From a virus, in the IMG/VR virus record IMGVR_UViG_3300027963_002897, positions 1 through 62,162 of that record: a stretch of DNA of 62,162 nt. One strand, 5' to 3'. The notes under the pieces were generated by a model. The model had not been told where the DNA came from and did no database searches. It worked only from the letters and a program-made list of their open reading frames with translations. Positions 3,170-39,984 of the stretch are shown one piece after another. A program made the position numbers and the translations under genes. The stretch's first letter is position 1, and the number at the start of each line of letters is the position of its first letter.

Positions 3170-3174
3170 AAATC

Positions 3175-3318: not shown

Positions 3319-3335
3319 ACAGCTTCTCCTATTAT

Positions 3336-3411: not shown

Positions 3412-3416
3412 GTGAT

Positions 3417-3761: not shown

Positions 3762-3807
3762 ATTTACTTTTAATTTTTAATGAACAGTATATATTGTACT
3801 GTCTTTC

Positions 3808-5418
3808 TTACTCTGTGTCAACCTCGTTAACATAAATTCTACTCTTTAAAAACTCATAATGGCTAGGCATCTTTGCAATCTTTCTTTCCATTACAACTTT
3901 ATTTGCATCTAATCGTTTTTTATAAATGTCGTATGCCTTGTTCATATCGGGATATGTTCTTCCGGCGAATTCTATAAATCTGCGACCGGCAGGTATATAC
4001 CCCATGCCTGCACTGATGTACAATAATCCTGCCAACTCTATTTGGAATTCTCGATCTCCAATTTGTTTGGCAAATTCACTGTAGCCGTCATTCATTGTTT
4101 GATCTAATCCCATTAGCACTTTCGAATAGTGCATGTTTTCTGTAACATGTCGCCAATACTCTGTATCGTTTCTAGACGATAGAGCATAATGCATAGACAC
4201 AAAGTCTTTGTATCCTAGGATTTCTTTTAACGACCTAGCATTGTACACATCAATGTCAAATTGATTCATTGTACAATTTTTCATTTGGAACGTGTCAATT
4301 AATCTTAAAATTGTGTTATGTGTAGTTAACAATCCTGTAGATTCCAACGGCTCAATAAATCCATTTGACAACCCAACAGCAACAACATTCTTGATCCAAG
4401 ATTGTTTATGAACACCATGACGTATTTTGATATGCTTAAAGACCGCAGCATTTGCTCGTTCTTTATTTGGACATATCATACGATCACTGGCAAGGTGTTT
4501 TCTAAATTGTTCTTCGGCTTGCTCTTTTGTAGCAAACTTACTAGAATATACGTATCCTGTGCCAATCCTATTCCACACAGGAATGTTCCATACCCAACCG
4601 TTGTCAATTGCAGTACAATTTGTTACAGATTCAAGTTCTCGTTCTTTATCGATGTATGGAATGTGTGTAGCAATTGCACTGTCATTCATGAGTGTATCAC
4701 TGAACGAAAGGAATTCCGATCCCATAGTTTCTTCAATCAGCATGGCTTTAAATCCTGTACAGTCAATGTACAGATCTGATTTTAATTTACTGCCATTTTT
4801 TGTTAGGATATAGTCTACAGAACCGTCTTCACAAAGAGGAATGTCAACCACATCATCTACAACATGCTTAACTCCTCTTGGCTTACAATAGTGTTCTCTA
4901 AGATAACGTCCAAACAATGCCGCATCAAAATGATAAGCAGTGTCGTATCTAAATCTAAAATTTTTAAGTTCGTTAAATTTATTATCAGTCATTTTGTTGG
5001 CATTGGTCATCCAAACATTTTCGTGATAATATTCAGCAAATGTATTACATTCTATTTCCGGATTCATACCTTTTGCCAAGTACCATTCCATTAATCCAAA
5101 ATCTTTATTGTCTAAAATTAAAGTTCCGAAAGGATAATGAAACGACACCGGCTTTTCTAGACGTTCTCTAAAATCTGTAAATTTAATAGAAGTTTTGTAT
5201 GTGGCATTACAGTGTGTCATCCAGTCGCTATCTTCTAACCCGATAGCATCAAGAAATATATTAAAAGCGGCTAACGTACTTTCGCCAACACCTATAATTC
5301 CTATGTCTTCAGATTCTACTAGTGTAATATCCAAATTTGGCATTTGAGCTATAAGCCCTGCCGCTGTCATCCAGCCGGCACTCCCACCACCTACAATTGT
5401 TATGCTTTTTATTTTCAT
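3808..5418 (-). CDS. Flavin-dependent (tryptophan-type) halogenase
   Basis: 536 aa, normal length for the family. The FAD-binding GGGSAGW is at residues 10-16 and the halogenase-specific WxWxIP appears as WVWNIP near residue 285, which separates these enzymes from plain monooxygenases. Family members use FADH2, O2 and halide to chlorinate, brominate or iodinate aromatic substrates. A cyanophage halogenase (VirX1) has been characterised, so a phage context is plausible; the substrate here is unknown. A stand-alone gene inside the tRNA array with its own promoter. Confidence 0.88.
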   Translation of the reverse strand: MKIKSITIVGGGSAGWMTAAGLIAQMPNLDITLVESEDIGIIGVGESTLAAFNIFLDAIGLEDSDWMTHCNATYKTSIKFTDFRERLEKPVSFHYPFGTLILDNKDFGLMEWYLAKGMNPEIECNTFAEYYHENVWMTNANKMTDNKFNELKNFRFRYDTAYHFDAALFGRYLREHYCKPRGVKHVVDDVVDIPLCEDGSVDYILTKNGSKLKSDLYIDCTGFKAMLIEETMGSEFLSFSDTLMNDSAIATHIPYIDKERELESVTNCTAIDNGWVWNIPVWNRIGTGYVYSSKFATKEQAEEQFRKHLASDRMICPNKERANAAVFKHIKIRHGVHKQSWIKNVVAVGLSNGFIEPLESTGLLTTHNTILRLIDTFQMKNCTMNQFDIDVYNARSLKEILGYKDFVSMHYALSSRNDTEYWRHVTENMHYSKVLMGLDQTMNDGYSEFAKQIGDREFQIELAGLLYISAGMGYIPAGRRFIEFAGRTYPDMNKAYDIYKKRLDANKVVMERKIAKMPSHYEFLKSRIYVNEVDTE

Positions 5419-5426
5419 ATCATTAT

Positions 5427-5455
5427 ATAGTACACGATAGTAATGAAAATGTCAA
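5427..5455 (-). promoter_or_regulatory. sigma70-type promoter for the halogenase
   Basis: Minus strand TTGACA (5450-5455), 17 bp, TACTAT (5427-5432), 9 bp before the start codon; an alternative TATAAT lies at 5422-5427 with longer spacing. Confidence 0.55.
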
Positions 5456-5459
5456 ATCC

Positions 5460-5551
5460 TGGTACCAGCGGAGGGGATCGAACCCTCTCAAGAACGCTAA
5501 TCTGGCGCTAAAAGTCTTATAAGGACTCTCTGACTTCCAAGTCTCGCTGGC
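5460..5551 (-). tRNA. Long-variable-arm tRNA with TAT anticodon
   Basis: Acceptor GCCAGCG/CGCTGGT, T-arm GAGGG/CCCTC with TTCGATC, CCA encoded. Anticodon stem GAGTC/GACTT closes the loop CTTATAA, giving TAT (codon AUA, isoleucine). But the variable region is about 24 nt, as in Ser/Leu/Tyr tRNAs, and the D-arm (GACT/AGTC, 4-nt loop) is minimal and lacks U8. Charging identity is therefore unclear. Confidence 0.7.
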
Positions 5552-5557
5552 ATTGTT

Positions 5558-5633
5558 TGGTGCTACCTCCAGGGATCGAACCTGGTTCAACGGTTCTTCA
5601 AACCGCCGCTATGACCACATCAGCTAAAGTAGC
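5558..5633 (-). tRNA. tRNA-Phe(GAA)
   Basis: Loop TTGAAGA in stem GCGGT/ACCGT; acceptor GCTACTT/AGGTAGC; CCA encoded. Confidence 0.93.
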
Positions 5634-5635
5634 AT

Positions 5636-5709
5636 TGGGTTGAACCGGGGAATCGAACCCTCTCTAACTGTTTCACAGACAGTTGTGCGACCACTACACT
5701 AGGAACAAC
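5636..5709 (-). tRNA. tRNA-His(GTG)
   Basis: Loop CTGTGAA in stem ACTGT/ACAGT; an extra 5' G faces C73 as in histidine tRNAs; CCA encoded. The acceptor stem has two U-U mismatches and the T-stem is imperfect, so it may be weak or decaying. Confidence 0.82.
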
Positions 5710-5711
5710 AT

Positions 5712-5788
5712 TGGCCGGCCCGGAGAGACTCGAACTCCCAACCTCTAGTTTCGAAGACTAGCACTCTAATCCATTGAGTTACGGACCG
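5712..5788 (-). tRNA. tRNA-Arg(TCG)
   Basis: Loop CTTCGAA in stem CTAGT/ACTAG; acceptor CGGTCCG/CGGGCCG, discriminator G, CCA encoded. Confidence 0.94.
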
Positions 5789-5792
5789 TTAT

Positions 5793-5866
5793 TGGCACCC
5801 GGAGTAAGAATCGAACTTACAATAGCAGAGTCAAAGTCTGTTGTGTTACCACTACACTATCCGGGA
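5793..5866 (-). tRNA. tRNA-Gln(TTG)
   Basis: Loop CTTTGAC in stem CAGA/TCTG; weak first acceptor pair (U-U) as is common for glutamine tRNAs, then CCCGGA/TCCGGG; CCA encoded. Confidence 0.9.
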
Positions 5867-5872
5867 TCAATA

Positions 5873-5947
5873 TGGTGGTAACGGCTGGATTCGAACCAGC
5901 ACCTTGCTCCGTATGAAGGAGGTGCACGACCATTATGCTACGTTACC
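5873..5947 (-). tRNA. tRNA-Met(CAT), elongator type (Ile2 not excluded)
   Basis: Loop TTCATAC in stem CTCC/GGAG; fully paired acceptor GGTAACG/CGTTACC; CCA encoded. A CAT anticodon could also be an Ile tRNA after lysidine modification. Its 5' end lies inside the inverted repeat 5944-6021. Confidence 0.88.
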
Positions 5948-6021
5948 ATATAAAAACACACTCACCCGAATGGACATATCCTGAGTTCCGCCTGCTGTCG
6001 GAAGTGTGTTTTTATATGGTA
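5944..6021 (-). ncRNA. Stem-loop RNA between tRNA-Lys and tRNA-Met
   Basis: 5944-5962 and 6003-6021 form a perfect 19-bp inverted repeat around a 40-nt loop. The stem takes in the 5' end of tRNA-Met and the CCA of tRNA-Lys, so stem and mature tRNAs are mutually exclusive. The loop begins with a TCCG/CGGA hairpin with an 8-nt loop starting ACA, as in the element at 144-237. Confidence 0.5.
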
Positions 6022-6090
6022 GGGGCACAGAGAATCGAACTCTGATTAATAGGTTAAAAGCCTACTACTTTGCCGTTAAGTTATACCCCC
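6017..6090 (-). tRNA. tRNA-Lys(TTT)
   Basis: Loop CTTTTAA in stem GTAGG/CCTAT; acceptor GGGGGTA/TGCCCCT; CCA encoded. Confidence 0.93.
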
Positions 6091-6144
6091 GACATCTTAT
6101 CACTCTTGTCACTACTCATGACAGATCTCCTTTTAAAAATAAAT

Positions 6145-6224
6145 TGTTGTAGTTTTACCAGTTAAACTATTGTAGCTGATTCTTAGTCTTGACTACAAGC
6201 TGGCTTCGAACCAGCAACACAACA
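6145..6224 (-). tRNA. Candidate circularly permuted tRNA (3' half precedes 5' half)
   Basis: On the minus strand a 3' half (anticodon-stem strand TGTTGT 6224-6219, perfect T-arm 6215-6199, acceptor TTGTAGT 6198-6192) is followed after 15 nt by a 5' half (acceptor GCTACAA 6176-6170, U8, D-arm GTTT/AAAC with GG in the loop 6167-6152, anticodon-stem strand ACAACA 6150-6145). Both the acceptor (7 bp, one G-U) and the anticodon stem (6 bp) pair across the halves. The anticodon loop is the break point, so decoding is uncertain. CCA is not encoded. It could instead be remnants of two tRNAs. Confidence 0.5.
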
Positions 6225-6228
6225 TGAT

Positions 6229-6303
6229 TGGTAGCCTATCTTGGGAACGATCCAAGGACCTATGCGTTATCAACACATTGCTCTACCACTGAGCTAATAG
6301 GCT
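6229..6303 (-). tRNA. tRNA-Ile(GAT) with atypical T-loop
   Basis: Loop TTGATAA in stem ATGTG/CGCAT; acceptor AGCCTAT/ATAGGCT; CCA encoded. The T-loop is ATCGTTC rather than TTCRANY, so the usual U54-A58 pair is swapped to A54-U58. Confidence 0.88.
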
Positions 6304-6510
6304 ATATTGAATTTGTAAGTAGTGCAACCATCGTTATATGCACCATTCACCCGTGTAATAAACTCGAGCGGGACTCGGTACGTCACTTGGGATTCATCCA
6401 GTCTGCCTCCTTTACAGGCCTCCGCCGTTCCCGGCAGGTGGGAGTTGAACCCAAAACCTTCTACTATACAGTACCTTCGAAGAATACTGAACAGCGTGAC
6501 TTCACTTGCT
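6294..6510 (-). ncRNA. tmRNA-like structured element, unresolved
   Basis: Not a normal tRNA. On the minus strand: a T-arm with GGGTTCAACTCCC (6440-6452, as in tmRNA); CTGCC (6437-6433) able to pair with GGCAG (6407-6403) after 25 nt; then CCCAAGTGACGTACCGAG, resembling the P2/PK1 entry of tmRNA; then a possible H-type pseudoknot (CGAG/CTCG at 6377-6365 and CCCG/CGGG at 6372-6369 with 6353-6350); then a possible tag frame from GCA at 6341. No G3-U70 pair and no ALAA-like tag end. A genuine permuted tmRNA lies at 44 kb, so this could be a diverged or dead copy, or something else. Confidence 0.3.
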
Positions 6511-6525
6511 GACACTTACAAAACT

Positions 6526-6615
6526 TGGCGGAAGCGGTGAGATTCGAACTCACGGACCTTTTACAGTCGTCTGTTTTCAAGACAGGTGCAATAAACCGGA
6601 CTCTGCCACACTTCC
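6526..6615 (-). tRNA. tRNA-Ser(TGA)
   Basis: Loop CTTGAAA with stem CTGT/ACAG; long variable arm; acceptor GGAAGTG/CGCTTCC, discriminator G, CCA encoded. Confidence 0.92.
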
Positions 6616-6621
6616 ATAACT

Positions 6622-6699
6622 TGGTACCCAAGGTCGGACTCGAACCGACACGATTCTCCTTTTGAGAGAGACGCCTCATACCAATTGGGCTACTTGGGC
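6622..6699 (-). tRNA. tRNA with CAA anticodon but short variable loop (Leu?)
   Basis: Loop CTCAAAA in stem TCTCT/GGAGA gives CAA (codon UUG). Acceptor GCCCAAG/CTTGGGT and T-arm are good and CCA is encoded, but the variable region is only 5 nt, whereas bacterial leucine tRNAs have a long arm. Amino-acid identity is therefore uncertain. Confidence 0.8.
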
Positions 6700-6703
6700 A
6701 TAC

Positions 6704-6781
6704 TGGAGTAGCGGGTGAGATTTGAACTCACGGTTTTACGGATTTGCAATCCGTTGCAATGGGCCACTCTGCCACCGCTAC
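6704..6781 (-). tRNA. tRNA-Cys(GCA)
   Basis: Loop TTGCAAA in stem ACGGA/TCCGT; acceptor GTAGCGG/CCGCTAC, discriminator U, CCA encoded. Confidence 0.94.
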
Positions 6782-6786
6782 ATGTT

Positions 6787-6860
6787 TGGCGTACCCCCAG
6801 AGACTCGAACTCCGACAAACGGTTTTGGAGACCGCTATGCTGCCATTACATCAGGGATAC
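6787..6860 (-). tRNA. tRNA-Trp(CCA)
   Basis: Loop CTCCAAA in stem GCGGT/ACCGT; acceptor GTATCCC/GGGGTAC, discriminator G, CCA encoded. Confidence 0.94.
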
Positions 6861-6865
6861 AAAAA

Positions 6866-6982
6866 GGTGCTCGCTGTTGGAATCGAACCAAACTGTTTAA
6901 CTCCGTATCTTCCTGGGGGCATTCACCTTTAGTCGACTTCGGGCTACTTGACACGATCCAGTGTAGTTAAACTTCAGCAAGC
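6866..6982 (-). ncRNA. Oversized tRNA-like element
   Basis: A 7-bp acceptor (GCTTGCT at the 5' end, AGCGAGC at the 3' end) and a T-arm (TTTGG/CCAAC, loop TTCGATT) enclose about 85 nt in which no standard D-arm or anticodon arm can be built. Total about 117 nt; the 3' end reads ACCT, so CCA is not encoded, unlike its neighbours. It may be an interrupted or degenerate tRNA, possibly the missing Gly or second Arg species. Confidence 0.45.
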
Positions 6983-6987
6983 ATAAT

Positions 6988-7062
6988 TGGTACTCGGTAC
7001 GAGAATCGAACTCGTCTTTCCGCCTTGAAAGGGCAGCGTCCTAACCGATAGACGAACCGAGC
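6988..7062 (-). tRNA. tRNA-Glu(TTC)
   Basis: Loop CTTTCAA in stem CTGCC/GGCGG; acceptor GCTCGGT/ACCGAGT; CCA encoded. Confidence 0.94.
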
Positions 7063-7070
7063 AAATTGTT

Positions 7071-7145
7071 TGGCTCCAGAGGCAGGGATCGAACCTACGA
7101 CCAATTGATTAACAGTCAACTGCACTACCGCTGTGCTACTCTGGA
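7071..7145 (-). tRNA. tRNA-Asn(GTT)
   Basis: Loop CTGTTAA in stem GTTGA/TCAAT; acceptor TCCAGAG/CTCTGGA, discriminator G, CCA encoded. Confidence 0.95.
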
Positions 7146-7153
7146 ATAATACT

Positions 7154-7230
7154 TGGCGGAAAAGACGGGACTCGAACCCGCGACTTCCTGCGTGACAGGC
7201 AGGCACTCTAACCAACTGAGCTACTTCTCC
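7154..7230 (-). tRNA. tRNA-Asp(GTC)
   Basis: Loop CTGTCAC in stem CCTGC/GCAGG; acceptor GGAGAAG/CTTTTCC, discriminator G, CCA encoded. Confidence 0.95.
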
Positions 7231-7236
7231 TAAACT

Positions 7237-7325
7237 TGGTGGAAGTGGTTGGATTCGAACCAACAATGTTTCTTATGTGGCGGATTTACAGTCCGTTGCC
7301 TTCAACCAATTCAGCACACACTTCC
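7237..7325 (-). tRNA. tRNA-Tyr(GTA)
   Basis: Loop CTGTAAA in stem ACGGA/TCCGC; long variable arm; acceptor GGAAGTG/CACTTCC; CCA encoded. First tRNA behind the array promoter. Confidence 0.95.
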
Positions 7326-17227: not shown

Positions 17228-17509
17228 ATGAGCGATATTTTTAAAATAATTGGTGATTTGGGCATGCCTGTAGCCGCGGCGTTAGCTGGTGGCTATTTTG
17301 TATACTTAACCATTAAGTTACTATTGCAGGGCGTACTTGGATCAATTAAAGGTATGGCTGGTATTATCACTGCTCTAGACAATCGTGTAAAAACCATGAA
17401 TCACGATGTTATACGTATTGATGCTGTTGTATCTAATGCACTAGGACTAAAACCGGATGTAGACCGTATCGCACGAGCAGACGGCAAGAATGATGCAAGG
17501 AGAGATTAA
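17228..17509 (+). CDS. Membrane protein with C-terminal coil, copy 1
   Basis: 93 aa. One membrane segment (PVAAALAGGYFVYLTIKLLL), then a helix with LDNRVKTMNHDVIRIDAVV. The same plan occurs in 17853-18203, so the two are paralogues. Starts the only plus-strand block in the first 60 kb; a TAAATACT element at 17193 suggests late expression, as for holin or envelope proteins. Confidence 0.72.
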   Translation: MSDIFKIIGDLGMPVAAALAGGYFVYLTIKLLLQGVLGSIKGMAGIITALDNRVKTMNHDVIRIDAVVSNALGLKPDVDRIARADGKNDARRD

Positions 17510-17709
17510 TGAGACATTATGATTACGATTGGGATTTAGAACCCTGGGGCATTACATTTGACCCTGAACTAAACATAGACAAGTTAGGATGGAAGAGCGG
17601 TGACTATTTTAAAATCACTAACGTTAACGGACGAGCCATGTTAGTCAAATGCGATCCGTTGGTAAAATTTATTAAAGAAGGGGAGAATGCAATTGAGCAA
17701 ATGGGATAA
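17509..17709 (+). CDS. Hypothetical protein
   Basis: 66 aa, starting MRHYDYDWDLEPWGITFDPE. Trp/Tyr-rich, soluble. TAATG overlap with the upstream gene. Not recognised, though similar small proteins occur in T4-like marine phages. Confidence 0.68.
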   Translation: MRHYDYDWDLEPWGITFDPELNIDKLGWKSGDYFKITNVNGRAMLVKCDPLVKFIKEGENAIEQMG

Positions 17710-17842
17710 CTGGTACGATAGCTTACCACAACACACAAAAGAATATTTAAAAACACAACCGTTATGGCACGATAAAGATGTAGCATTTTTTGTCAGTATT
17801 GCATTAGTGGTAGGTTTTTTCTTTGGGTATATTGCCCACTAA
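17687..17842 (+). CDS. Small tail-anchored membrane protein
   Basis: 51 aa from ATG, or 49 aa from a TTG at 17693 that has the better spacing from GGGGAG. Ends with a membrane helix (VAFFVSIALVVGFFFGYIAH). Overlaps the upstream gene. A possible holin-like or envelope component. Confidence 0.62.
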   Translation: MQLSKWDNWYDSLPQHTKEYLKTQPLWHDKDVAFFVSIALVVGFFFGYIAH

Positions 17843-17852
17843 GGAGTAGTAT

Positions 17853-18203
17853 ATGGATCCAGTAGAATTAGTTAACAAGTATGGCTTCCCAATTGTTATG
17901 GCGGTTGGGATGGGTTTCATTATCAAGTACGTTTGGGAATGGGCTACCAAAGAAGTTAAGCCGGTTATCTCAGATGCCAATACTGTGTTGATTGCTCTAA
18001 TCGATCGTATTCGTATGTTGGACAATGACTTGATTCGTTTAAATCAAAAAGTTAATACTGTGCTACATCTACGTGGTAAGATGATTGAAGGCGATCGTGT
18101 TATGGAAACAGCGTTAACTGAAGCACAGGCTAATAAGAAGTTCCACGAAGCTATGGACGAAGCCGATAAGATCAGCAAGAAAGAAGCAGCAGGCGGCAGT
18201 TAA
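17853..18203 (+). CDS. Membrane protein with C-terminal coil, copy 2
   Basis: 116 aa. Membrane segment FPIVMAVGMGFIIKYVWEW then LIDRIRMLDNDLIRLNQKVN, matching copy 1 in plan and motif (LDN-x-(D/V)-x3-R-x-N/D). AAGGAG upstream. The stop overlaps the convergent minus-strand DD-peptidase gene by 4 bp. Confidence 0.72.
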   Translation: MDPVELVNKYGFPIVMAVGMGFIIKYVWEWATKEVKPVISDANTVLIALIDRIRMLDNDLIRLNQKVNTVLHLRGKMIEGDRVMETALTEAQANKKFHEAMDEADKISKKEAAGGS

Positions 18204-18922
18204 TTTTTAGCAGCAATAAACTCAGCTTCGGGAATACGTGTATGTGTATTCTTACTGCCTAGCACCACAACAATTCTAGATCCTATATCTGTATCAATCA
18301 TTAACACAATGCAGCCTCCTGAAGCATTAATAAATCCTGTTTTACTAACAACAAAATCGTGACGCTTGCCTATGATGGGATTTGTGTTACGGAATACGAA
18401 CCATTTCTTTCTGATTTTAATCTTAACTTCACTTGTGCGTGAGGCTAACACGATTTCGGGATATTTTGCAGCTTCTAAAACCACTGTGATCAATTCTTTA
18501 GCAGTGCTGACATTCATAACACTTAGTCCGCTAGATTCAACAAAATGAGTTTTTGTTAATCCTAAAGATTCCATCTTGTGATTCATGGCTCTTACACATT
18601 GAGCAGAACCACCGGGATAGTGTTTACATAAATCTAGACTTGCTTGATTATCCGATTTAACTAATGCCAGCTGTATCATCTCGCCACGAGTATATGGCTT
18701 GATGTACTCATCGAGATCTTGTCGAGCATCTAATACCACCATCGCTGTAACAAGTTTAGTAATACTGGCAATGCTACGCTGTTGCGAAACATTTTCACCT
18801 TCTATGATATTACCTTTGGAGTCTGCCACTAACCAACTTTTGGCAGTGACATTTAGAGCAAATACTGAATTACTTAGTAGTAGCCCTAAAAATACCATCC
18901 CAATCTTTTGGAAGTTTAGCAT
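18200..18922 (-). CDS. D-alanyl-D-alanine peptidase, S11/PBP7 type
   Basis: 240 aa with a signal peptide (FLGLLLSNSVFA). The penicillin-binding triad is SITK, SDN and KTG in that order, as in low-molecular-mass DD-carboxy/endopeptidases such as PBP7. It would trim peptidoglycan cross-links in the periplasm. Last gene of the curli-like operon and overlapping the cyclase gene by 53 bp; it may open the wall for the secretion apparatus or aid lysis. Confidence 0.87.
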   Translation of the reverse strand: MLNFQKIGMVFLGLLLSNSVFALNVTAKSWLVADSKGNIIEGENVSQQRSIASITKLVTAMVVLDARQDLDEYIKPYTRGEMIQLALVKSDNQASLDLCKHYPGGSAQCVRAMNHKMESLGLTKTHFVESSGLSVMNVSTAKELITVVLEAAKYPEIVLASRTSEVKIKIRKKWFVFRNTNPIIGKRHDFVVSKTGFINASGGCIVLMIDTDIGSRIVVVLGSKNTHTRIPEAEFIAAKN

Positions 18923-20927
18923 TCTTCATTTCCTCACACCGTTCTATCCATAATTCGTATGAGTGATCCATCTGTCTATCAAAAGAACCCATTAAGTTTT
19001 TACTCATGGTAATTGCTTGATCAAATTTCTGAGCTCTATATGATTGTAACATTTGATTATGGTTTAGTCTAGCTGCCTGATAAGCAGCCATATCTACTCC
19101 GTCTGTGAGTAATGGTGTGTAAATTCGCAAGCCAACTGTTTTACCTTTAACAGCAATGTTGTCTAGCTCTAGTGTAAAGATTTCATCCTTTACAAGTTCA
19201 TTAGTGTTAGGGCCAATAATTAGCAATACACCATATGACTTTGTTTGTCCTTCTAAACGTGCGGCAGTACTTACGCTGTCGCCTAGTACGTCATAGCCAA
19301 ATTTACTCTTGGCTCCAATATTACCAATTAGTGTTTCGCCTGTGTTAACACCTGCGCCCATACCAACTGGAGGTTTACCTTTGGCAGTAAGCTCTTTGTT
19401 AAACTCTTCAATTGCTTTAATCATTTGCTGTGCTGTGCGAACAGCCGTATAAGCATGACGTGGGTCATCTAACGGAGCACCGTGTATGTGTAGGCTGGCA
19501 TCTCCAATAAACTTAATCAATGTGCCATCATTCTTTAGTACAGGAATACTCAACGCTGTCATATAGTCATTCATGATTTGTGTTAGGCCTTCCACATCAT
19601 CGCCAAAACTTTCACCTAGTGTAGTAAAGCCACGTAAGTCAGTCATAACAATTGAAAGTTCTTTACGCTCCCCACCTAATTTAATAAGCTCGGGATTCTT
19701 TTGTAGTCGTTCTACGATAGTGGGATTTACATATGATCCAAATTGCTTTTTAATCTGTTGCTTTTGAAGGAACTCACTTACAAACTTAACCCCGTAGGCA
19801 TGCAAAGCGACCAGGACTGTGCAAACTGCAAAGGCAGTAGCATCAAATAAGAATAAAAAGTTAGTGAAAGCATACTGACTGCCAACAATGCCGCCAACAA
19901 CCAATACAACGACCGACGCAAGTCCAACATAAGTCCACCTTGTTAAAAATAGTAATAATAATCCTGCGGCTAGAATAGCAACAATCTCTAAACCATCTGC
20001 ATAGTCTGGACGTTGTATAACAACTCCGTTAGCCATAGTGGCAATTACACCGGCTTGTACTTCGTGCGGAAAAACAGCCCCTATACTTGTTGGTACCGGA
20101 TTCGCAATGCCGGCAGCAGTGGGCCCTACTACAACAATAGCACCACCAAAGTCTTTTGGTAAATTAGTTAACGATACTGATTTACTCTGCTGACTCCAAT
20201 CAATCCATATACGACCAAGATTGTCTGTATTGATAATTCCAACTTCTCCAGCAAGCCTCATTTTCTCAACACCACCTTCATTAAGTTTAATCTGGAAGGT
20301 ATCGTTGCCTGTGGCAACACGTAATGCCTCTAGTGCCAGTCCAGGATACAGTTTATCATTGACTGCAACGATCAGCGGAACTCGACGATTAACACCATCT
20401 ACTTCTGGGAGTGTGTTCACAATACCAACACCAGCAGCTGATTTTTCTAGTTGTGGTACGTTGGCAATAAGTCCTGGGTATTGTACAATTTGATCCAACC
20501 ACTCCGGACCTAACACAGCACTGCCTGGAACACGCGGTGTATTCTTTGTTTTGTCGCTAGGTACAGATCCTAAAACGACAGGATACTTTTTAAGTATGGC
20601 ACTAAGATCTCCATCTCCACCAGTACGATCGCGCTCAGCCATAAGCACGTTGAGCACAACAAGGCCAGCGTTACGATGATAAAGGTCTTCAATAATTTCA
20701 GCATAGTTAACCCTCGGTAGTGGCCACTGGCCATATTTGTCTAATGCGGCTTCGTCTATGTTGACCGTATAGATGTTGTTCTGAGTGGGGGCTTTGGCTG
20801 TGATCAGTGTGTCAAAGTAGCGTAGTCTTACACTTTCTACAAAGCTAGGATCGGCGATTCTTATACTTATAATAAGTGCCAATGTTAATAGGGCAGTCCA
20901 CGGACTTAGAAGGAGTTTTTTTAGCAT
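18870..20927 (-). CDS. CHASE2-domain adenylate/guanylate cyclase
   Basis: 685 aa. N-terminal membrane anchor, then a periplasmic CHASE2 domain (TVNIDEAALDKYGQWPLPR near residue 50), three membrane helices around residue 340-400, and a class III cyclase domain (MTDLRGFTTL with metal Asp, TLIKFIGDA with purine-reading Lys and second Asp, YDVLGDSVSTAARLE). Lys plus Asp argue for cAMP. The usual transition-state Asn of VNxAAR is Ser here, so activity may be reduced. Start chosen at 20927, 3 bp after a TAAATAT late-type element. Confidence 0.88.
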   Translation of the reverse strand: MLKKLLLSPWTALLTLALIISIRIADPSFVESVRLRYFDTLITAKAPTQNNIYTVNIDEAALDKYGQWPLPRVNYAEIIEDLYHRNAGLVVLNVLMAERDRTGGDGDLSAILKKYPVVLGSVPSDKTKNTPRVPGSAVLGPEWLDQIVQYPGLIANVPQLEKSAAGVGIVNTLPEVDGVNRRVPLIVAVNDKLYPGLALEALRVATGNDTFQIKLNEGGVEKMRLAGEVGIINTDNLGRIWIDWSQQSKSVSLTNLPKDFGGAIVVVGPTAAGIANPVPTSIGAVFPHEVQAGVIATMANGVVIQRPDYADGLEIVAILAAGLLLLFLTRWTYVGLASVVVLVVGGIVGSQYAFTNFLFLFDATAFAVCTVLVALHAYGVKFVSEFLQKQQIKKQFGSYVNPTIVERLQKNPELIKLGGERKELSIVMTDLRGFTTLGESFGDDVEGLTQIMNDYMTALSIPVLKNDGTLIKFIGDASLHIHGAPLDDPRHAYTAVRTAQQMIKAIEEFNKELTAKGKPPVGMGAGVNTGETLIGNIGAKSKFGYDVLGDSVSTAARLEGQTKSYGVLLIIGPNTNELVKDEIFTLELDNIAVKGKTVGLRIYTPLLTDGVDMAAYQAARLNHNQMLQSYRAQKFDQAITMSKNLMGSFDRQMDHSYELWIERCEEMKNAKLPKDWDGIFRATTK

Positions 20928-20928
20928 C

Positions 20929-20940
20929 CGATATTTATCT
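20929..20940 (-). promoter_or_regulatory. Late-type TAAATAT element at the cyclase start
   Basis: Minus GATAAATATCGG lies directly before the ATG at 20927, like elements before 27166, 34963, 41771 and 60858. Confidence 0.4.
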
Positions 20941-20941
20941 G

Positions 20942-21649
20942 TTAAAACTTGGTGTAGGACCAACCTGAACCACAAGGGCTGCATTGTATATTCATTCCTG
21001 CCTGATCGGGAGTATATGGATTAGTTTGGTTAACCGTAACTCCTGCTCCTGTTGCACCATTAAACTGTAAATTAAAAACTTTATCGCTGCCTGCTCCGCC
21101 TTGTTGTAATGCTGTAACTGTGTTGCCATTGTTTGTAGCATTGTTTGGATTTGTGACTGTGAATGAGTGTGAGCCTGCACCTTGCTGTGTTATACCTATA
21201 TTATTTCCAGTACCGATCATATTCTGTATACTTGCATTATGATTTCCAGTTCCATCTTGTTGTATGTTAAATGTATTGCTGACTCCGGATTTTAATTCTA
21301 TGCTGGCTGTTTTTGCAGCACCTTGTTGTGTGATTGTAAACGTATTGTAATCAACATCAGAAGTTGTACCGGCTTTGATGGTAGCACTGTTTCCACTACC
21401 ATCTTGCACGATCGTGATGGTATTACTTGATCCTATTTGTTCTATGTCAATGGTATTGTCAGCCGCATATACTCTTCCTGACATTAAAGATATTATAAAA
21501 ATAATAATAAATGGGAATGAAAATAGACCGAAAGCAATTATACATCCTTGTATTATTTGTTTTTTATATAAGGCTTGTTTTTCTGCGTGAAATCTTCGCC
21601 AGTATTCTATTATTCTATCATAATGATCGTCGTATCTTGTTCTGTTCAT
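20942..21649 (-). CDS. Curlin-repeat protein with membrane anchor
   Basis: 235 aa. An N-terminal cytoplasmic part and a hydrophobic signal anchor (about residues 37-56), then repeats rich in N, Q, G and T such as IEQIGSSNTITIVQDGSGN and FNIQQDGTGNHNASIQN, the strand-turn-strand pattern of CsgA/CsgB curlins (X6-Q-X-G-X2-N-X-A/T-X3-Q). Likely an amyloid-forming subunit; the long basic N-terminus before the signal is unusual. The last residues hold two Cys. Confidence 0.8.
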   Translation of the reverse strand: MNRTRYDDHYDRIIEYWRRFHAEKQALYKKQIIQGCIIAFGLFSFPFIIIFIISLMSGRVYAADNTIDIEQIGSSNTITIVQDGSGNSATIKAGTTSDVDYNTFTITQQGAAKTASIELKSGVSNTFNIQQDGTGNHNASIQNMIGTGNNIGITQQGAGSHSFTVTNPNNATNNGNTVTALQQGGAGSDKVFNLQFNGATGAGVTVNQTNPYTPDQAGMNIQCSPCGSGWSYTKF

Positions 21650-22776
21650 TTCTGTATCAGCGTTATAACTGTGCTGCCTCCGCTGTTAACACGATTCTTA
21701 AAGTCTAGTACTCCCTGTGTCATATAAATGGTTGAATTTTGTGTTGTAGGTACTGTTACGATCATGTTATTACTGCCATCGTCACGTGCTAATGTTACTT
21801 TAGGTTCTTGAACATCTACGGTAATACCTGTAATAGCTTGCCAGTCTGGCAATAGCCTATTGCTGGTAGTATTCAACATATTCAATTGTGCTTTCATTTG
21901 CGCATCTAGAATATCTAGGATGTTAGCAAGAAAAGTTTGATCAAGAAAATTTCGAGCCAGCTTGTCTTGGAAAACTTCTTTTTCTTGATCATCTAAGACA
22001 TTAACTAATCCCTGCTCTTTAAGGAAGTCTATGTCTAAGGCAGTTTTCATTTCCATCTTGCCTTGATGTTTATTTTGATGTTGATCGAGTTCTGGTGGCG
22101 GTGCAACAATTAACATATTATTGATGGCACCTTCGCTGAGTTTAAGTATAGCAGGAGGTGTAGGTATTGCACTTCTACTGTCAACTCTGGTGGCTTGGAA
22201 GGGCTTGTTTAGTATGACCTGCCCTGCATCACTTTCTACAGTGATTTCGCCAGTTTTACAGATGGCTTCAATATCCTGTACAGTTCGAGTATTGCGATCA
22301 CTAGGACAGCTAGGTAATAAAATAATTGTGCTACGTCCTAGCTCATCTACTGTGGCAGTGAAATCAGTACCACGAACTGATACCGTGGCACTTGGTGTAT
22401 TGACAGACACTGCCTGTGGACTATTTTTAGCAATCTGTCCAGATGCATAGCGCACGGTGCCTAAAGCCATATTAAGAGCTACTTTACCGGATTTGCTTTT
22501 TGGATCATAGACAAAATCATCAATAACTAATTTTGAATTTTCGTTGACCTGTACTCTGGTCTGATCTTCAAATGTTATTCCGATTTTGCCCTGTGTAGTC
22601 CGTACTGCATCCTGCATCTCCACTCCAGTGCCTTTGACTCCTATCACCTTCTGTGATTTCCTCTCCACAGTCGCGGCTGCGTTCAATTGCTCTGTGATAG
22701 TCCCTATCCCTGCGTAGCTCTGAGATATAGGCAACAACAGCCCGCATAGTAGTAGCGTCCATAATTTAGTCTCCAC
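21646..22776 (-). CDS. FecR-domain periplasmic protein
   Basis: 376 aa with signal peptide (LLLCGLLLPISQSYAG). The FecR-type beta domain runs about residues 25-155 (VQVNENSKLVIDDFVYDPKS, GTVRYASG, TPSATVSVRGTDF). FecR domains bind or sense surface structures and often accompany curli-like or ECF systems. ATGA overlap with the following curlin gene. In this setting it could scaffold or sense the fibre. Confidence 0.85.
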   Translation of the reverse strand: METKLWTLLLCGLLLPISQSYAGIGTITEQLNAAATVERKSQKVIGVKGTGVEMQDAVRTTQGKIGITFEDQTRVQVNENSKLVIDDFVYDPKSKSGKVALNMALGTVRYASGQIAKNSPQAVSVNTPSATVSVRGTDFTATVDELGRSTIILLPSCPSDRNTRTVQDIEAICKTGEITVESDAGQVILNKPFQATRVDSRSAIPTPPAILKLSEGAINNMLIVAPPPELDQHQNKHQGKMEMKTALDIDFLKEQGLVNVLDDQEKEVFQDKLARNFLDQTFLANILDILDAQMKAQLNMLNTTSNRLLPDWQAITGITVDVQEPKVTLARDDGSNNMIVTVPTTQNSTIYMTQGVLDFKNRVNSGGSTVITLIQK

Positions 22777-22785
22777 AGTGTGCCT

Positions 22786-23694
22786 TTATCGTGACGGTAA
22801 TGTTAACAATGGAACCAGTGCACCTTGACTAACATTAACGCTGTTACCACTGCCGTTAATCTTAATCTTAGCTTCTTGCCCTGTACCGGATGATCCTTGA
22901 TTGACTCCGATAAAGTTAGTGTCTCCTGTAATTCCTAAACTGATACTGTTATTGTTACCGTTTTGTACAAGTTGTATTTGGTTGTCATTACCAGCCAATG
23001 TTGACCCACTGGTATATCCGCCAATAGTAATACCGTTACCTGTGCCAGTTTGTTCTATGCCAAATATATTACCATATCCGCTGGTGCTGATACCGATGGT
23101 ATTACTATCACCGGTAGTTGAGATAGTAGTTGAGTTACTACCAACTGTTCCGGATTTCGTAATGTTTTGTATGTTATCATCACCTGCTATAGTAGAAATA
23201 ACACTGTCACCGTCGCCTGAAGTAGTAACAGATACTTCGTTACGAGCACCAGTTACACGAGATTGCAGGACAGTACTGTTACCACTTTGTGTTATGTCTA
23301 TTAGGTTACTTGCGCCGCTGTTTTTAATGAATGCTTGTGCGCTGTCACCGGTTATATTATAATTGATAGTGGTATTACGTTGTCCAGATTCTGTCGATCC
23401 AGCAGACTGCAGAGAAAGGGTATTCCCCGAACCAACTTGATTAATCTGTAGTTGTGTATTATCACCGGATACTGTGGCGGCATCAACTCCGCGAACACCC
23501 GGTGCATTGTTTACTATGCCTTTGACTGTGTTACCTGCACCATCTTGGGTGATATTAACTACAGCATTATCACCACTTTGATCAATGTAGATACTGTTGT
23601 CAACGGCATGGCCCAGTGATGGCATCGCAGCCAACACCAGAATTGTGAGTAATTTTCTCGACAACCCACCAGCGCCTTTGATTCTTGTTTTCAT
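22786..23694 (-). CDS. Curlin-repeat protein (CsgA/CsgB-like)
   Basis: 302 aa with signal peptide (LLTILVLAAMPSLGHA). Some ten curlin-type repeats with the spacing N-x-I-x-I-x-Q-x-G-x-x-N, for example IYIDQSGDNAVVNITQDGAGN and IEQTGTGNGITIGG. Such repeats stack into functional amyloid after CsgG-dependent export. Roughly twice the length of E. coli CsgA. Stop is 10 bp before the FecR ATG; start overlaps the upstream sORF (ATGA). Confidence 0.88.
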   Translation of the reverse strand: MKTRIKGAGGLSRKLLTILVLAAMPSLGHAVDNSIYIDQSGDNAVVNITQDGAGNTVKGIVNNAPGVRGVDAATVSGDNTQLQINQVGSGNTLSLQSAGSTESGQRNTTINYNITGDSAQAFIKNSGASNLIDITQSGNSTVLQSRVTGARNEVSVTTSGDGDSVISTIAGDDNIQNITKSGTVGSNSTTISTTGDSNTIGISTSGYGNIFGIEQTGTGNGITIGGYTSGSTLAGNDNQIQLVQNGNNNSISLGITGDTNFIGVNQGSSGTGQEAKIKINGSGNSVNVSQGALVPLLTLPSR

Positions 23695-23825
23695 TTATTT
23701 TCATTATTAGGATAATAAATTCCTAATGTCGCTCCTGTTTTTATGTTATGTTTCCTTTTTAATTCCTTTCTCTCATTTAAAAAGCATTCTCTGCTTAAAA
23801 TATTTACTGAGGTAACAGCAATCAT
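23691..23825 (-). CDS. Small ORF coupled to the curlin gene
   Basis: 44 aa, starting MIAVTSVNILSRECFLNERK, basic and Asn-rich. GCGGAG sits upstream of the ATG, and its TGA overlaps the curlin ATG, so it may serve as a translational leader or encode a small factor. Not recognised. Confidence 0.5.
   Translation of the reverse strand: MIAVTSVNILSRECFLNERKELKRKHNIKTGATLGIYYPNNENK
23799..23809 (-). promoter_or_regulatory. Late-type TAAATAT element in the curli leader
   Basis: Minus AGTAAATATTT, about 105 bp before the curlin start. Upstream (23860-23893) a TTAATTTTTTACAC unit is repeated. Confidence 0.35.
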
Positions 23826-23893
23826 TATGCTCCGCTGTTATTTTTCCGTTACTATAAGGTGTAAAAAAATTAACAGTGTAAAAAATTAACACC

Positions 23894-25123
23894 TTATTTC
23901 ACTTCCTCTAAATGTTCTGCGCGGACCCACCCGCCTCGTTTCTCACTGTCTGTCACTCTTAACCAACCTTCGCTGCCTGGTTGAATTACATTTACCATGG
24001 TGCCTTTCTTAAACTGCCAAGTTTTTTGACTCTTCTCATCTGGCTCTTTGTAAATGTACTGTGCTTCTGTTAATCTACGTTGTCCAAATAAAGGTCTAGG
24101 TTCTATTTTTTCTTCAACGGCCTTACTTTCTCTTTTGTTTCCTTCATCAGCCTTTCTGCTGTTGGACTCAGTCGCCGATCTTGTGGGTACGGGACTTGGC
24201 TGGGCGGCAACTGCTTGGGGGGTTTGATTTTGAACCACGACATCTTTCTTTTCCTCCACTTTTATTTCACTGCTGATAACCGGTGCTTTTGGTTCTATTT
24301 TTGATATTACCACAGCCACAGGAGTATCTACTTTATATTCCCATATACCTTTGGTTACACCTTCTTTAATCAATTCGACCACTGCCATTTCCACAGCGGC
24401 TTTTACTGCGTAGGTTCCGGGCTCATTGATAGTCAATCCTGCTTCTGCTTCAAATGCCTGTGTGCCTGCATCAAAAAACTTCAATGCTGTGGCACTGTCA
24501 GATGTGCTTAGGATAGTCTTTTGTACTGTAACTGTGGCCAGTACTTTACCTGTGTTTACACTAACAGCACGTAGGCTAACTGTGACTGTATCCTGGCTCC
24601 ATTGTGTCTGTTTACCTATGCCAAATATACGCATACCAGCACCACCGCTGGTAGTTGTTGTATCATAGCCAACCAATCCACCTTCTAAGATCATACCAGC
24701 AAACTGCATGGGCATCAAGGGTTTGGCATTGGCTCCTTCATAGGCTTCACGCATCTGGCGAATGATAGTACGCTCTTTAGTTAGGTTATCAATACCCACA
24801 CGCTCTACTACTTCGAACCAACGACCTCGGCCAACATTCTGGAGTGCCTGTATTAGGAATGTTTCTGCACCTTGTGTAACTGCTGTTGATAAACTGGCCA
24901 CGTTAGCCTGTGGACGTCTTTGACCTGTTTTGTCAGCAAAACTGTATACTGCTACACTGATAGGTTTACCAGCAGACGGTGCCTGTATCTCGTCAAATTC
25001 TTTCTTGACTGCTTTTCTCTGCGTTGTCAGTGTTGGATCTGTTTCATTCAACCCGGTGCTTTGGATTATGGCACATCCGCTCAACATTGAAACTATCACG
25101 AGTGTTAGTAGAGTCTTTTTCAT
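23894..25123 (-). CDS. csgG: CsgG-type curli secretion lipoprotein with SH3 tail
   Basis: 409 aa. Lipobox MLSGC at residues 14-18, then the CsgG core (VAVYSFADKTGQRRP, FLIQALQNVGRGRWFEVVER, ILEGGLVGYDTTTTSGGAG with the transmembrane hairpins, SLRAVSVNTGKV). CsgG forms a nine-fold outer-membrane pore that exports curlins. Unlike E. coli CsgG it has a roughly 130-residue extension: a Pro/Lys linker and a terminal SH3-like domain (about 345-409), which may bind peptidoglycan. Confidence 0.92.
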   Translation of the reverse strand: MKKTLLTLVIVSMLSGCAIIQSTGLNETDPTLTTQRKAVKKEFDEIQAPSAGKPISVAVYSFADKTGQRRPQANVASLSTAVTQGAETFLIQALQNVGRGRWFEVVERVGIDNLTKERTIIRQMREAYEGANAKPLMPMQFAGMILEGGLVGYDTTTTSGGAGMRIFGIGKQTQWSQDTVTVSLRAVSVNTGKVLATVTVQKTILSTSDSATALKFFDAGTQAFEAEAGLTINEPGTYAVKAAVEMAVVELIKEGVTKGIWEYKVDTPVAVVISKIEPKAPVISSEIKVEEKKDVVVQNQTPQAVAAQPSPVPTRSATESNSRKADEGNKRESKAVEEKIEPRPLFGQRRLTEAQYIYKEPDEKSQKTWQFKKGTMVNVIQPGSEGWLRVTDSEKRGGWVRAEHLEEVK

Positions 25124-25124
25124 A

Positions 25125-25565
25125 TTACTGGAATTGGAACTGTCCTAATGGAACTGTAATTGTTGTTTGATTACCTACAGTATCAGTGACTGTGAGATAA
25201 ACATTTGAACTGTCTTTGTTCCAAAATATAGTATTACCTTCAAAGTTCAGTGTACCACTGGTACTACCTCCATTGGCAAACATAGCTGTGGCTAAGTTTT
25301 GACTTATCTGCGCATATATTCTAGATTCCAAGTTGTTCATAAACTTGGCTAAGTTAGTGTTCTTTTCGTCAGCTTTGGCTTTTTCTAAAGCTGCTTGAAT
25401 ATCTTTTTTAACCTGTGCTTGACGTGTGAATTCTTGATTCTCTATGGTAAGCACGTGAGAACTGTAGCCCGAGCCGTTAAAGCTGGGACTTTTAAATCCG
25501 AAGTCTAGGGGTGCAGCAATGCTCGCAAGAGGAAACGCTGCTAATAATACTAATACGTTTTTCAT
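25125..25565 (-). CDS. csgF: CsgF-like curli assembly factor
   Basis: 146 aa with signal peptide ending ASIAA. The mature start PLDFGFKSPSFNGSGYSSH matches the CsgF N-terminus (FxFRNPxFGG) that plugs into the CsgG pore, and the C-terminal VYLTVTDTVGNQTTITVPLG the conserved beta part. First gene of the operon and 1 bp from csgG. Confidence 0.88.
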   Translation of the reverse strand: MKNVLVLLAAFPLASIAAPLDFGFKSPSFNGSGYSSHVLTIENQEFTRQAQVKKDIQAALEKAKADEKNTNLAKFMNNLESRIYAQISQNLATAMFANGGSTSGTLNFEGNTIFWNKDSSNVYLTVTDTVGNQTTITVPLGQFQFQ

Positions 25566-25589
25566 CGAAACCGCTCCCGGTAATCCGTA

Positions 25590-25602
25590 TTAGTATTTAA
25601 GT
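25590..25602 (-). promoter_or_regulatory. Late-type TAAATACT element before csgF
   Basis: Minus ACTTAAATACTAA, about 25 bp upstream of the csgF ATG, resembling the T4 late -10 TATAAATA. Confidence 0.5.
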
Positions 25603-25642: not shown

Positions 25643-27166
25643 TTAATCGAATCTAAAACTGATCTTTTTAGATGGTCTTGCGTTAGATGTATAGTGTTCA
25701 GCATCAATAACAATGTTGCCATTGAATCTTGGAGGCCAAACTACATCAAATTTACTAAAGACTATGCCAGCGGGTGATTTTTCAGTGTAGGTGTACACCT
25801 GTACCATTGACGCTTTGTTTAAAACTGCTTTGAAAAAATCAGTTAGTAATCGAGAGTTTTTATTAAGATCGGCGGCTAACAGTTTAGCACAGCACCCTAA
25901 CAAATGATATCCCATTTGCCATTTAGGGTTATTGAGATCAACACCTCGATTAGATATCACTTCCTCGCCTGCCTTATTTTTTACTATAGATCCTTTGATA
26001 ATTTTAGCATTATAAACTCTGGACAAATTTGGAAAGTTTTGTAAATCTTGAAGTGTACCTGTACCTTTACCGTATATTTCCTGTATGTAGTTTTTCTCAT
26101 CATCGTTGATAATACCAATATCAGGAAGAGCGCAGGCTGCTAATATACCCGGAATAGCTTCGTTTGTATGCAGTGTCTCTAATGCAGGAAGAAGAGCTGC
26201 ATATTTTTTATAGAATTTGGTATTTGGTCCAAAATCGTCCGGGTACTTATCTAAGGTTTCCATAGCACCAGTTAAGCTGGCCGCTGCACCACCACTTTTA
26301 TTTTTACTGCTGATGATGATCTTAGTCCCTTCTGCCCATAAAAATGAGTCGCCTATCTTTTCTCCAAATGCACCAAACGATGCTTCGTTAAAACTAGACC
26401 AAGATAGCCCTAACGGTCCTAACAGATTTTTCTCTGCGGCAGCGTAATCTCCGCTAACACGTTTGTTTAATGCTAATGCTATAGGGGCAGCAGTTTCACC
26501 AAAAACAACTTCAATTTGATCGGCGTACTGATCTAGATTAGGAACAGCTCCGGTATCGTTCATTAGGTCATCAAGTAAAGCAGGCAATCCTACTTTTAAA
26601 TTTTGAGGGAATGATGCAGGTCTTGAATTTAAATTTTGTGCAACTAATCCTGGAAGACCTGCAATCGGATATTTTCCGGGTTTTACAAAATCATAAGGAC
26701 TGATTTTTATTTCTGCAGCCTTGGCAGTTGCTGATTTACCCTTACCAGTTTGTACCCAGCCAGTTTCTTTTGAAAATTCAGAAGTTTGCCAATATAGGGG
26801 AGGATGTACTGGTTTCTTTTGTTTGTAAAACTTAACAAATGCAATCTTAGTGTTTGGGTCACCGATTACAACAACCATAGCTGCGGCGGTGCCTTTGTTA
26901 CCGCCAACGTATTTTTGTACCGTTGCACCTTGTTGTTGCAGATACGCATCGATGTCTGCTTTCATTAGATCTGTAACAATCGTTTCTGGATTTTCAGGAT
27001 CAGGTTCGTAATTTAAACGGGCGTCTTGCGGAAATACTGCAACGTTAATTAAATCGTAGGTATTGTTGCCGTTGATGAATTGGATCTGTGCTCCAGACTT
27101 CTTTTCCAACATGCGATCCCACATACCACCCTGGGCTTCAACTAAAAGGAATTCAAATGCTCTCAT
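25643..27166 (-). CDS. Large hypothetical protein, capsid-targeting-like N-terminus
   Basis: 507 aa, starting MRAFEFLLVEAQGGMWDRML. The M-R-x-F-E-F-x-x-x-E start resembles the T4 capsid-targeting sequence (EFIAE), which directs internal proteins into the prohead and is cut after Glu by the prohead protease. The body is mixed alpha/beta with no domain I recognise. TAAATATT lies 4 bp before the ATG. Could be an injected internal protein. Confidence 0.7.
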   Translation of the reverse strand: MRAFEFLLVEAQGGMWDRMLEKKSGAQIQFINGNNTYDLINVAVFPQDARLNYEPDPENPETIVTDLMKADIDAYLQQQGATVQKYVGGNKGTAAAMVVVIGDPNTKIAFVKFYKQKKPVHPPLYWQTSEFSKETGWVQTGKGKSATAKAAEIKISPYDFVKPGKYPIAGLPGLVAQNLNSRPASFPQNLKVGLPALLDDLMNDTGAVPNLDQYADQIEVVFGETAAPIALALNKRVSGDYAAAEKNLLGPLGLSWSSFNEASFGAFGEKIGDSFLWAEGTKIIISSKNKSGGAAASLTGAMETLDKYPDDFGPNTKFYKKYAALLPALETLHTNEAIPGILAACALPDIGIINDDEKNYIQEIYGKGTGTLQDLQNFPNLSRVYNAKIIKGSIVKNKAGEEVISNRGVDLNNPKWQMGYHLLGCCAKLLAADLNKNSRLLTDFFKAVLNKASMVQVYTYTEKSPAGIVFSKFDVVWPPRFNGNIVIDAEHYTSNARPSKKISFRFD

Positions 27167-38973: not shown

Positions 38974-39984
38974 TTATCTTGTACCCGATTTTTCTATTAA
39001 GTTGTCTTTAAATATTTGCCAAGCACGTTCCCAAGTCCAACGACTGCTGCCTTCTAATACTCGATTACGGTCAAGTAACAATGCAGAGTCAACGGCCTGC
39101 TTTAGATCTTCGTTCATACAGCCAGTAATACCTTCATCCACTACATCTAATGGACCTTGGCATGGATATGCAGCCACTGGAGTGCCACAGGCCATGGCTT
39201 CAATCATGACTAGTCCGAACGTTTCCCAACGACTAGGGAACACAAAGCAATCTGCCATGGCAAAGTATTTGGCTAGTTCTTCACCACGCTTGGCTCCTAC
39301 AAATTTTACATCAGGATACTGTGCCTTATACTCTTCCAGCATAGGACCATCGCCTACCATGAACTTGACACCCTCGTAAGGCATTTCAAAAAACGCTTCT
39401 AAGTTCTTTTCTTTACTTACACGGCTAACGCATACTAATATAGGACCATTTACCACTGTGCCAGTACGCTGACTTGGATTAAATATAGCACGGTCAACAC
39501 CGCGTGTCCATGGAATAACATCTCCATCGAATCCGTGGGCTTGTAATTCTTTAACCATGGTGTCGGTAGTGGTCAACACCTTGCCTGCGTGTTTGTGGAA
39601 CCAGCGTACTAGAGGCCAAGTAAGTGCCTCAGGGATTCCAAATAGGGCTCTAAGTCCTTCAGGGAACTTAGTATGATAAGCAGTATTGTACCGAAGATTA
39701 TGTTTTGAAAGATATTTTCTAGCAGACAGACCAACAGGACCCTCTGTGGCAATATGGTAATAATCCGCACCTGCCGCCTCAATCTTCTTGCCCATCTGCC
39801 TGGTAAGGGCAATCTTGACTTCGTTGTAGCCAGGACAATCAAAGTAGCGGAAGTCCCCGGGAGTAATGTAAACAACGCTATAACCATCCAGAACCGCACA
39901 AGCCTCGATGTTTTTGTAAGTTGTGACAACGCCATTGATCTGCTCCGGTAAGTTATCTGTAATAATTAAAATCTTTTTTGTCAT
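38974..39984 (-). CDS. agt: GT4 glycosyltransferase, Agt-like
   Basis: 336 aa. N-terminal ITDNLPEQINGVVTTYKN, central LVCVSRVSKEKNLEAFFEMP, and the E-x7-E motif in ETFGLVMIEAMACGTPVAAY mark a retaining GT-B family 4 enzyme. The opening resembles enzymes that glycosylate diacylglycerol or mannose lipids. With the PlcP-like gene two genes upstream it matches the plcP-agt pair that swaps phospholipid for glycolipid. Overlaps the upstream ATP-grasp gene by 4 bp. Confidence 0.82.
   Translation of the reverse strand: MTKKILIITDNLPEQINGVVTTYKNIEACAVLDGYSVVYITPGDFRYFDCPGYNEVKIALTRQMGKKIEAAGADYYHIATEGPVGLSARKYLSKHNLRYNTAYHTKFPEGLRALFGIPEALTWPLVRWFHKHAGKVLTTTDTMVKELQAHGFDGDVIPWTRGVDRAIFNPSQRTGTVVNGPILVCVSRVSKEKNLEAFFEMPYEGVKFMVGDGPMLEEYKAQYPDVKFVGAKRGEELAKYFAMADCFVFPSRWETFGLVMIEAMACGTPVAAYPCQGPLDVVDEGITGCMNEDLKQAVDSALLLDRNRVLEGSSRWTWERAWQIFKDNLIEKSGTR

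Follow-up and report, generated by a model that had tools for sequence, protein, structure and literature searches.

Curli genes in phages were reported from pelagimyophages in 2020, together with the idea of "sibling capture" (PMC7029224), and the question of why lytic phages carry surface-amyloid machinery has stood since then. The full set, FecR and an adenylate cyclase included, followed in 2022 (PMC9599517), with evidence that it moves from one phage family to another and is expressed according to ocean metatranscriptomes. Here we analyse a locus of this kind in IMG/VR virus record IMGVR_UViG_3300027963_002897, taken in full as a window of 62,162 nucleotides. Its minus strand carries the operon CsgF-CsgG-curlin 1-FecR-curlin 2-CHASE2 cyclase-S11 peptidase (Table 1). 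We consider it rather probable, judging from gene content and context, that a T4-like phage here encodes a curli (type VIII secretion) operon expressed late, which would put amyloid on the infected cell and sense the envelope through FecR and CHASE2.

The type VIII secretion system of pelagiphages (HTVC008M, pelagimyophages, and HTVC023P-type podophages; PMC9599517, PMC7029224) shares the order CsgF-CsgG-curlin-FecR-curlin-cyclase and likewise has no CsgE. Unlike that module, the window has an SH3 tail on CsgG, a peptidase behind the cyclase, TGT-N10-ACA sites, and no recognised histidine kinase gene upstream; the kinase that precedes csgF in the podophage form is not recognisable in the 507-amino-acid protein encoded at this place, which starts MRAFEFL and has no Pfam match above cut-off and no PHROG match. 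Melnitz, a Methylophilales phage (PMC9004378), has the same six genes in order and differs from the window in having neither the SH3 tail nor a peptidase after the cyclase. Its authors report the curlins as missing (PMC9004378), contrary to the Melnitz record, which annotates two curlin-repeat proteins. E. coli csgBAC/csgDEFG shares the CsgG pore, CsgF, and curlin repeats, whereas the phage operon adds FecR and a CHASE2 cyclase, CsgE is not found, and CsgD and CsgC are not seen in the operon. The Burkholderia BiofilmReg operon (LysM-FecR and CHASE2 histidine kinase; PMC5192318) likewise pairs a periplasmic FecR protein and a CHASE2 receptor, there in connection with biofilm; its output is a kinase and response regulator, not a cyclase, and it has no curli genes. 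The six-gene core is therefore already known, and the original prediction that only CsgG alone occurs in marine phages does not hold: the order was published for pelagiphages in 2022 (PMC9599517) and is present in HTVC008M and Melnitz. New here are the branch, the SH3 tail, the peptidase, the cyclase variation, the cargo slot, and the tandem sites together with the TAAATA element before curlin 1.

Conservation of the operon and its phage branch

A profile search over fetched loci, mostly virus contigs, yielded 78 non-redundant CsgG loci (<95% identity). Each scan contributed its best 80 loci, and all frequencies given below therefore describe relatives of this CsgG and not all 544 contigs; IMG/VR contigs may also be fragments. 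All 48 loci with the six core genes keep the same order and direction; most of the remaining loci run off the end of their contig. A T4-type gp23 capsid protein is encoded on several large curli contigs, and the same six-gene order is annotated in the cultured phages HTVC008M and Melnitz. The whole operon, and not the pore alone, is thus kept intact, and the expected retention of gene order in other phages is borne out.

The window cyclase is ~38% identical to that of HTVC008M, and CsgG and the cyclase are ~44-45% identical to their Melnitz counterparts; a near-identity search among annotated phages returned no match. The window encodes 23 transfer RNA (tRNA) genes and a transfer-messenger RNA (tmRNA), which is permuted, of betaproteobacterial type, and specifies the tag ANSSEYALAA. 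The phage belongs to a large further branch beyond the marine SAR11/OM43 phages, which widens the known range of the system accordingly; from the tmRNA type, together with general knowledge of such samples, this branch is probably a freshwater one. A search for a bacterial donor of the six genes gave only two Rhodobacteraceae bin contigs with the whole operon (L127, L128; loci are numbered with L), whose read depth is very different and which may be binned phage contigs. The other bacterial CsgG loci are without FecR and cyclase nearby.

Table 1. Positions of the operon, its DNA elements, and other features in the window
Feature	Position	Strand	Basis or remark
Operon CsgF-CsgG-curlin 1-FecR-curlin 2-CHASE2 cyclase-S11 peptidase	25565-18200	-	Pfam matches, seven genes
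CsgF, secreted partner of curli pore, 146 aa	25125..25565	-	Pfam CsgF E 1.5e-15; signal peptide by eye
CsgG, outer-membrane secretion pore lipoprotein with C-terminal SH3	23894..25123	-	Pfam CsgG 1e-48, SH3_4 2.8e-8; LSGC lipobox by eye
Curlin-repeat subunit 1, 302 aa	22786..23694	-	Pfam Curlin_rpt 1.6e-6; signal peptide by eye
FecR-domain periplasmic protein	21646..22776	-	Pfam FecR 1.2e-11
Curlin-repeat subunit 2, 235 aa	20942..21649	-	Pfam Curlin_rpt 1.1e-9, two stretches
CHASE2 membrane adenylate cyclase	18870..20984	-	Pfam CHASE2 7e-38, Guanylate_cyc 1.6e-16
S11 PBP7/PbpG-like murein DD-endopeptidase	18200..18922	-	Pfam Peptidase_S11 5.8e-37; motifs SITK, SDN, KTG
Late-type promoter element TAAATACT, 27 bp upstream of csgF	25592..25599	-	predicted; position conserved in relatives
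TAAATA late-type element upstream of curlin 1	23801..23806	-	predicted
Tandem palindromic unit TGTTAATTTTTTTACA, TGT-N10-ACA	23860-23875	-	intact in window
Tandem palindromic unit TGTTAATTTTTTACA, before curlin 1	23877-23891	-	degenerate N9, one base short
507-aa protein upstream of csgF	25643-27166	-
Phosphoesterase/GT4/RimK-like trio	38974-41771	-	outside operon
tmRNA	43857-44242	-
Endolysin-like gene	45828-46856		PHROG lysis match
Two related small proteins	17228-18203	+	PHROG 18771, unknown function
tRNA array	1-7325	-	covers many amino acids; partial tRNA at edge
Tryptophan halogenase-like gene	3808-5418		within tRNA array region

Predicted proteins of the operon

All seven genes named in the original prediction are present in one direction. 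The overlaps it described apply to three pairs, FecR/curlin 2 (4 bp), curlin 2/cyclase (43 bp), and cyclase/peptidase (53 bp); CsgF and CsgG are spaced by 1 bp, curlin 1 and FecR by 9 bp, and a gap of 199 bp between CsgG and curlin 1 contradicts the description there. A signal peptide or lipobox, judged by eye and not by a program, is present on CsgF, CsgG, both curlins, FecR, and the peptidase; an extracytoplasmic location is thus predicted for all parts of the operon except the membrane and catalytic parts of the cyclase. The gene identities agree with the proposed self-contained, envelope-directed set combining amyloid subunits with a second-messenger enzyme.

CsgG matches the E. coli CsgG structures in the PDB (E ~1e-45), and Foldseek on its AF2 (AlphaFold2) model returns CsgG (9e-17) and an SH3 structure. 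The SH3 tail foreseen by the original prediction folds in the model as residues ~346-409, with predicted local distance difference test (pLDDT) values mostly of 93-95, behind a disordered linker of ~75 residues (pLDDT ~39). It is carried by CsgG in 44 of the 78 loci. Its association with the peptidase (10/20 against 5/23) is suggestive only.

Both curlins contain N-x5-Q repeats and are predicted amyloid subunits; curlin 1 scores 9.8e-8 against NCBIfam CsgB, under the family cut-off. The N-terminal part of FecR resembles the PupR signalling domain (Foldseek 1.7e-4), and in the AF2 model six regular β strands make up the C-terminal 60 residues. The matches listed in 289 alphaproteobacterial genomes leave this C-terminal part uncovered, and the six-stranded domain appears, from these comparisons, in phage versions only so far. 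Among 30 bacterial loci that were read, FecR adjoins the CHASE2 cyclase in 4, and it is also adjacent to a CHASE2 protein in Oricola. Sinorhizobium CHASE2 cyclases answer an external protein via an outer-membrane protein (PMC13001267). Because bacterial FecR-CHASE2 pairs recur and the Sinorhizobium precedent exists, envelope sensing by the phage pair is plausible; that FecR is a sensor handling curlin is a guess.

The window cyclase has the metal- and substrate-binding residues intact. The catalytic residues D449, K491, D495, and R576 (metal Asp, Lys, and Arg) are invariant in all 39 phage cyclases. Positions 565 and 572 are Asp565 with Ser572 in 28 of the 39, Thr with Asn in 10, and Ser with Asn in one. 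Compared with the window, the L072 cyclase is 87% identical in CHASE2 and 52% in the catalytic domain, and the L115 cyclase 57% and 88%, respectively; the two domains diverge independently, which indicates domain replacement. A free-standing protein of ~100 residues, homologous to the C-terminal ~100 residues of the CHASE2 cyclase (L069:9183-9482 and others; hhalign 98.9%, E 1e-17), lies upstream of csgF in 19 non-redundant loci, the window not among them, and is possibly a regulatory fragment.

The peptidase shares its S11 family, three active-site motifs, and signal peptide with PBP7/PbpG, the window copy being phage-encoded; its closest solved relatives are PBP7-type murein DD-endopeptidases (PDB 6muq, 6azi), and it scores under the NCBIfam equivalog cut-off. 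SxxK, SxN, and KTG are kept in all full-length copies, and given the conservation of these motifs and of the cyclase residues, both enzymes look selected for function. The original prediction counted the peptidase as a member of the set. Of 43 informative loci, 15 have it directly behind the cyclase; other curli phages carry it at another place, and it occurs in phage records without CsgG as well, so that it is accessory rather than core. Its neighbours in these carriers, examined for linkage to holin and spanin genes, are unnamed small, partly membrane proteins.

DNA elements and the cargo slot

TAAATAC occurs at -45 to -20 of csgF in 30 of 76 loci, compared with 0.26 expected from its overall frequency, which supports the late-type elements originally proposed. 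Control words of the same letters reach 0-3 loci at csgF, except AAATACT, which overlaps the motif. The loci are related by descent, so that a p-value is not to be taken literally; the placement is clear all the same. Across the whole window the count of the csgF element TAAATACT is unremarkable (7 vs 3.7 expected). Before curlin 1, TAAATA is invariant in 21 of 21 aligned gaps and present in 26 of 62 gaps, against 3.7 expected. Lying shortly before genes, these TAAATA-type elements match the T4-like late promoter format and are putative late promoters.

The gap between csgG and curlin 1 holds two or three tandem TGT-N10-ACA units, followed ~45 bp on by TAAATA. Such units are found in 24 of 27 long csgG-curlin gaps at a density of 11.1/kb vs 0.49/kb elsewhere, with other spacings reaching at most 2.6/kb. 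RNA structure was considered and rejected, since RNAalifold predicted no base pairs in the gap and Rfam returned no credible match; the units are therefore read as DNA palindromes. They have the format of CRP/FNR-type sites, but their half-site is not TGTGA.

Curlin 2 and the cyclase are separated in some phages by a slot for further genes. One kind of slot gene encodes a secreted protein whose C-terminal barrel has an aromatic residue as its last. Two members match Pfam Autotransporter (1e-10 and 2e-14), and a profile identifies autotransporter-like slot proteins in 13 loci. Pfam scans of four other slot proteins did not reach this family, and for these four the barrel assignment therefore rests on homology with the two matching members. 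Autotransporter-like proteins with variable N-terminal passengers are seen at L103:3868-6153, L117:15168-17201, L110, L087, L062, and L100, further ones at L111, L088, L105, L078, and L086, and a relative in Synechococcus phages DSL-LC02/03.

About 20 loci carry an LpxH-like phosphoesterase in the slot region, mostly with a GT4 glycosyltransferase and sometimes with a RimK-like ligase. The window trio is 91%, 44%, and 72% identical to that of L025, respectively. In bacteria, 19 of 20 loci have the relatives of the phosphoesterase and glycosyltransferase side by side, as in plcP-agt lipid remodelling (PMC4796936, PMC9239053). By homology and context, the phage pair would likely replace phospholipids by glycolipids, and the phages with it may thus alter the membrane lipids of their hosts too. 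The trio is also found at L025:14535-17159, L109:15382-18202, and others, and the phosphoesterase of Pelagibacter phage Mosig is 50% identical.

Proposed role and alternatives

In the reading we prefer, amyloid display with envelope sensing, the CsgG/CsgF pore would export the curlins late in infection, and these would polymerise into amyloid on the outer membrane of the infected cell. Periplasmic FecR would inform the CHASE2 sensor of secretion or of the state of the envelope, and the cyclase would raise cyclic AMP (cAMP), reprogramming the host via the cAMP receptor that the host itself supplies. The pore may be anchored to the cell wall by the SH3 tail; the DD-endopeptidase may loosen crosslinks around the pore or simply serve lysis. 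Least certain is the benefit: the coat might hold neighbouring cells as next hosts and/or block competing phages. A tentative extension, which we regard as unlikely, is a modular surface-remodelling platform of lytic T4-like phages in which the curli core and cargo slot are joined to cyclic-nucleotide feedback through a host CRP-type regulator at the TGT-N10-ACA sites.

Several observations weigh against amyloid display with sensing. Expression, secretion, and fibres are predicted from the genes. In the window cyclase, D565 is present and S572 replaces the usual transition-state Asn, which every bacterial CHASE2 cyclase examined for this motif retains; because of this replacement, activity and product are uncertain, and the enzyme might form an unusual product. 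A search of phage records for a cAMP receptor gave none, and Melnitz-infected cultures show no clumping (PMC9004378). The FecR C-terminus aligns with curlin at a weak hhalign probability of 6%, yet above all 30 shuffles; with no PDB sequence match either, its assignment as a curlin was rejected. CsgE (PF10627) was not found in the window or 22 related records, the E. coli positive control being matched. E. coli curli do not strictly require CsgE (PMC7029224), which is also missing from alphaproteobacterial modules (PMC9599517), so its lack does not bar membership of the curli systems.

Masking of receptors by amyloid, glycolipids, and autotransporter-like proteins, giving superinfection exclusion without aggregation, is possible though doubtful as the sole function: the plcP-agt-like pair and glycosyltransferases in or near the operon and the unclumped Melnitz cultures suit it, whereas late expression would come late against competitors. 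We find it unlikely that the operon is a lysis-timing device, as proposed for Melnitz (PMC9004378), with CsgG/CsgF as a gated pore or pinholin-like trigger and the DD-peptidase opening the wall. The position of the peptidase in the window and in 15 of 43 loci, the adjoining phage genes for small membrane-anchored proteins, which run in the other direction, and the missing CsgE gate agree with such a device, which leaves the conserved curlins, FecR, cyclase, and autotransporter or lipid cargo unexplained; moreover, the peptidase is separable, the curlins called missing are annotated in the Melnitz record, and the window has another endolysin-like gene. An ungated CsgG admitting nutrients or macromolecules (suggested in PMC7029224 and PMC9599517) is improbable. 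Although CsgE is not found and FecR is named for iron-citrate signalling, an uptake pore would need neither CsgF nor strictly conserved curlins, and FecR in the operon accompanies CHASE2 and has neither a sigma factor gene nor one for a TonB transporter next to it. Surface cargo argues against a pure lysis or uptake role and favours surface display over release. Bacterial contamination or an assembly chimera, named in the original prediction as what would overturn it, can be set aside with near certainty: the genes are of bacterial origin, but their order recurs in dozens of independent virus contigs, several with gp23, and in cultured phages, and the base composition of the operon matches that of the rest of the window. 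The DNA elements, catalytic residues, and genes behind the proposed amyloid display with sensing are now named precisely enough to test.

Elsewhere in the window, matches to ribonucleotide reductase, tail-spike, and virion proteins are present, and a tryptophan halogenase-like gene lies among the tRNA genes. Facing the end of the operon, the two related small proteins each have an N-terminal membrane helix; their relatives flank the operon in many loci and are holin-like by look only.

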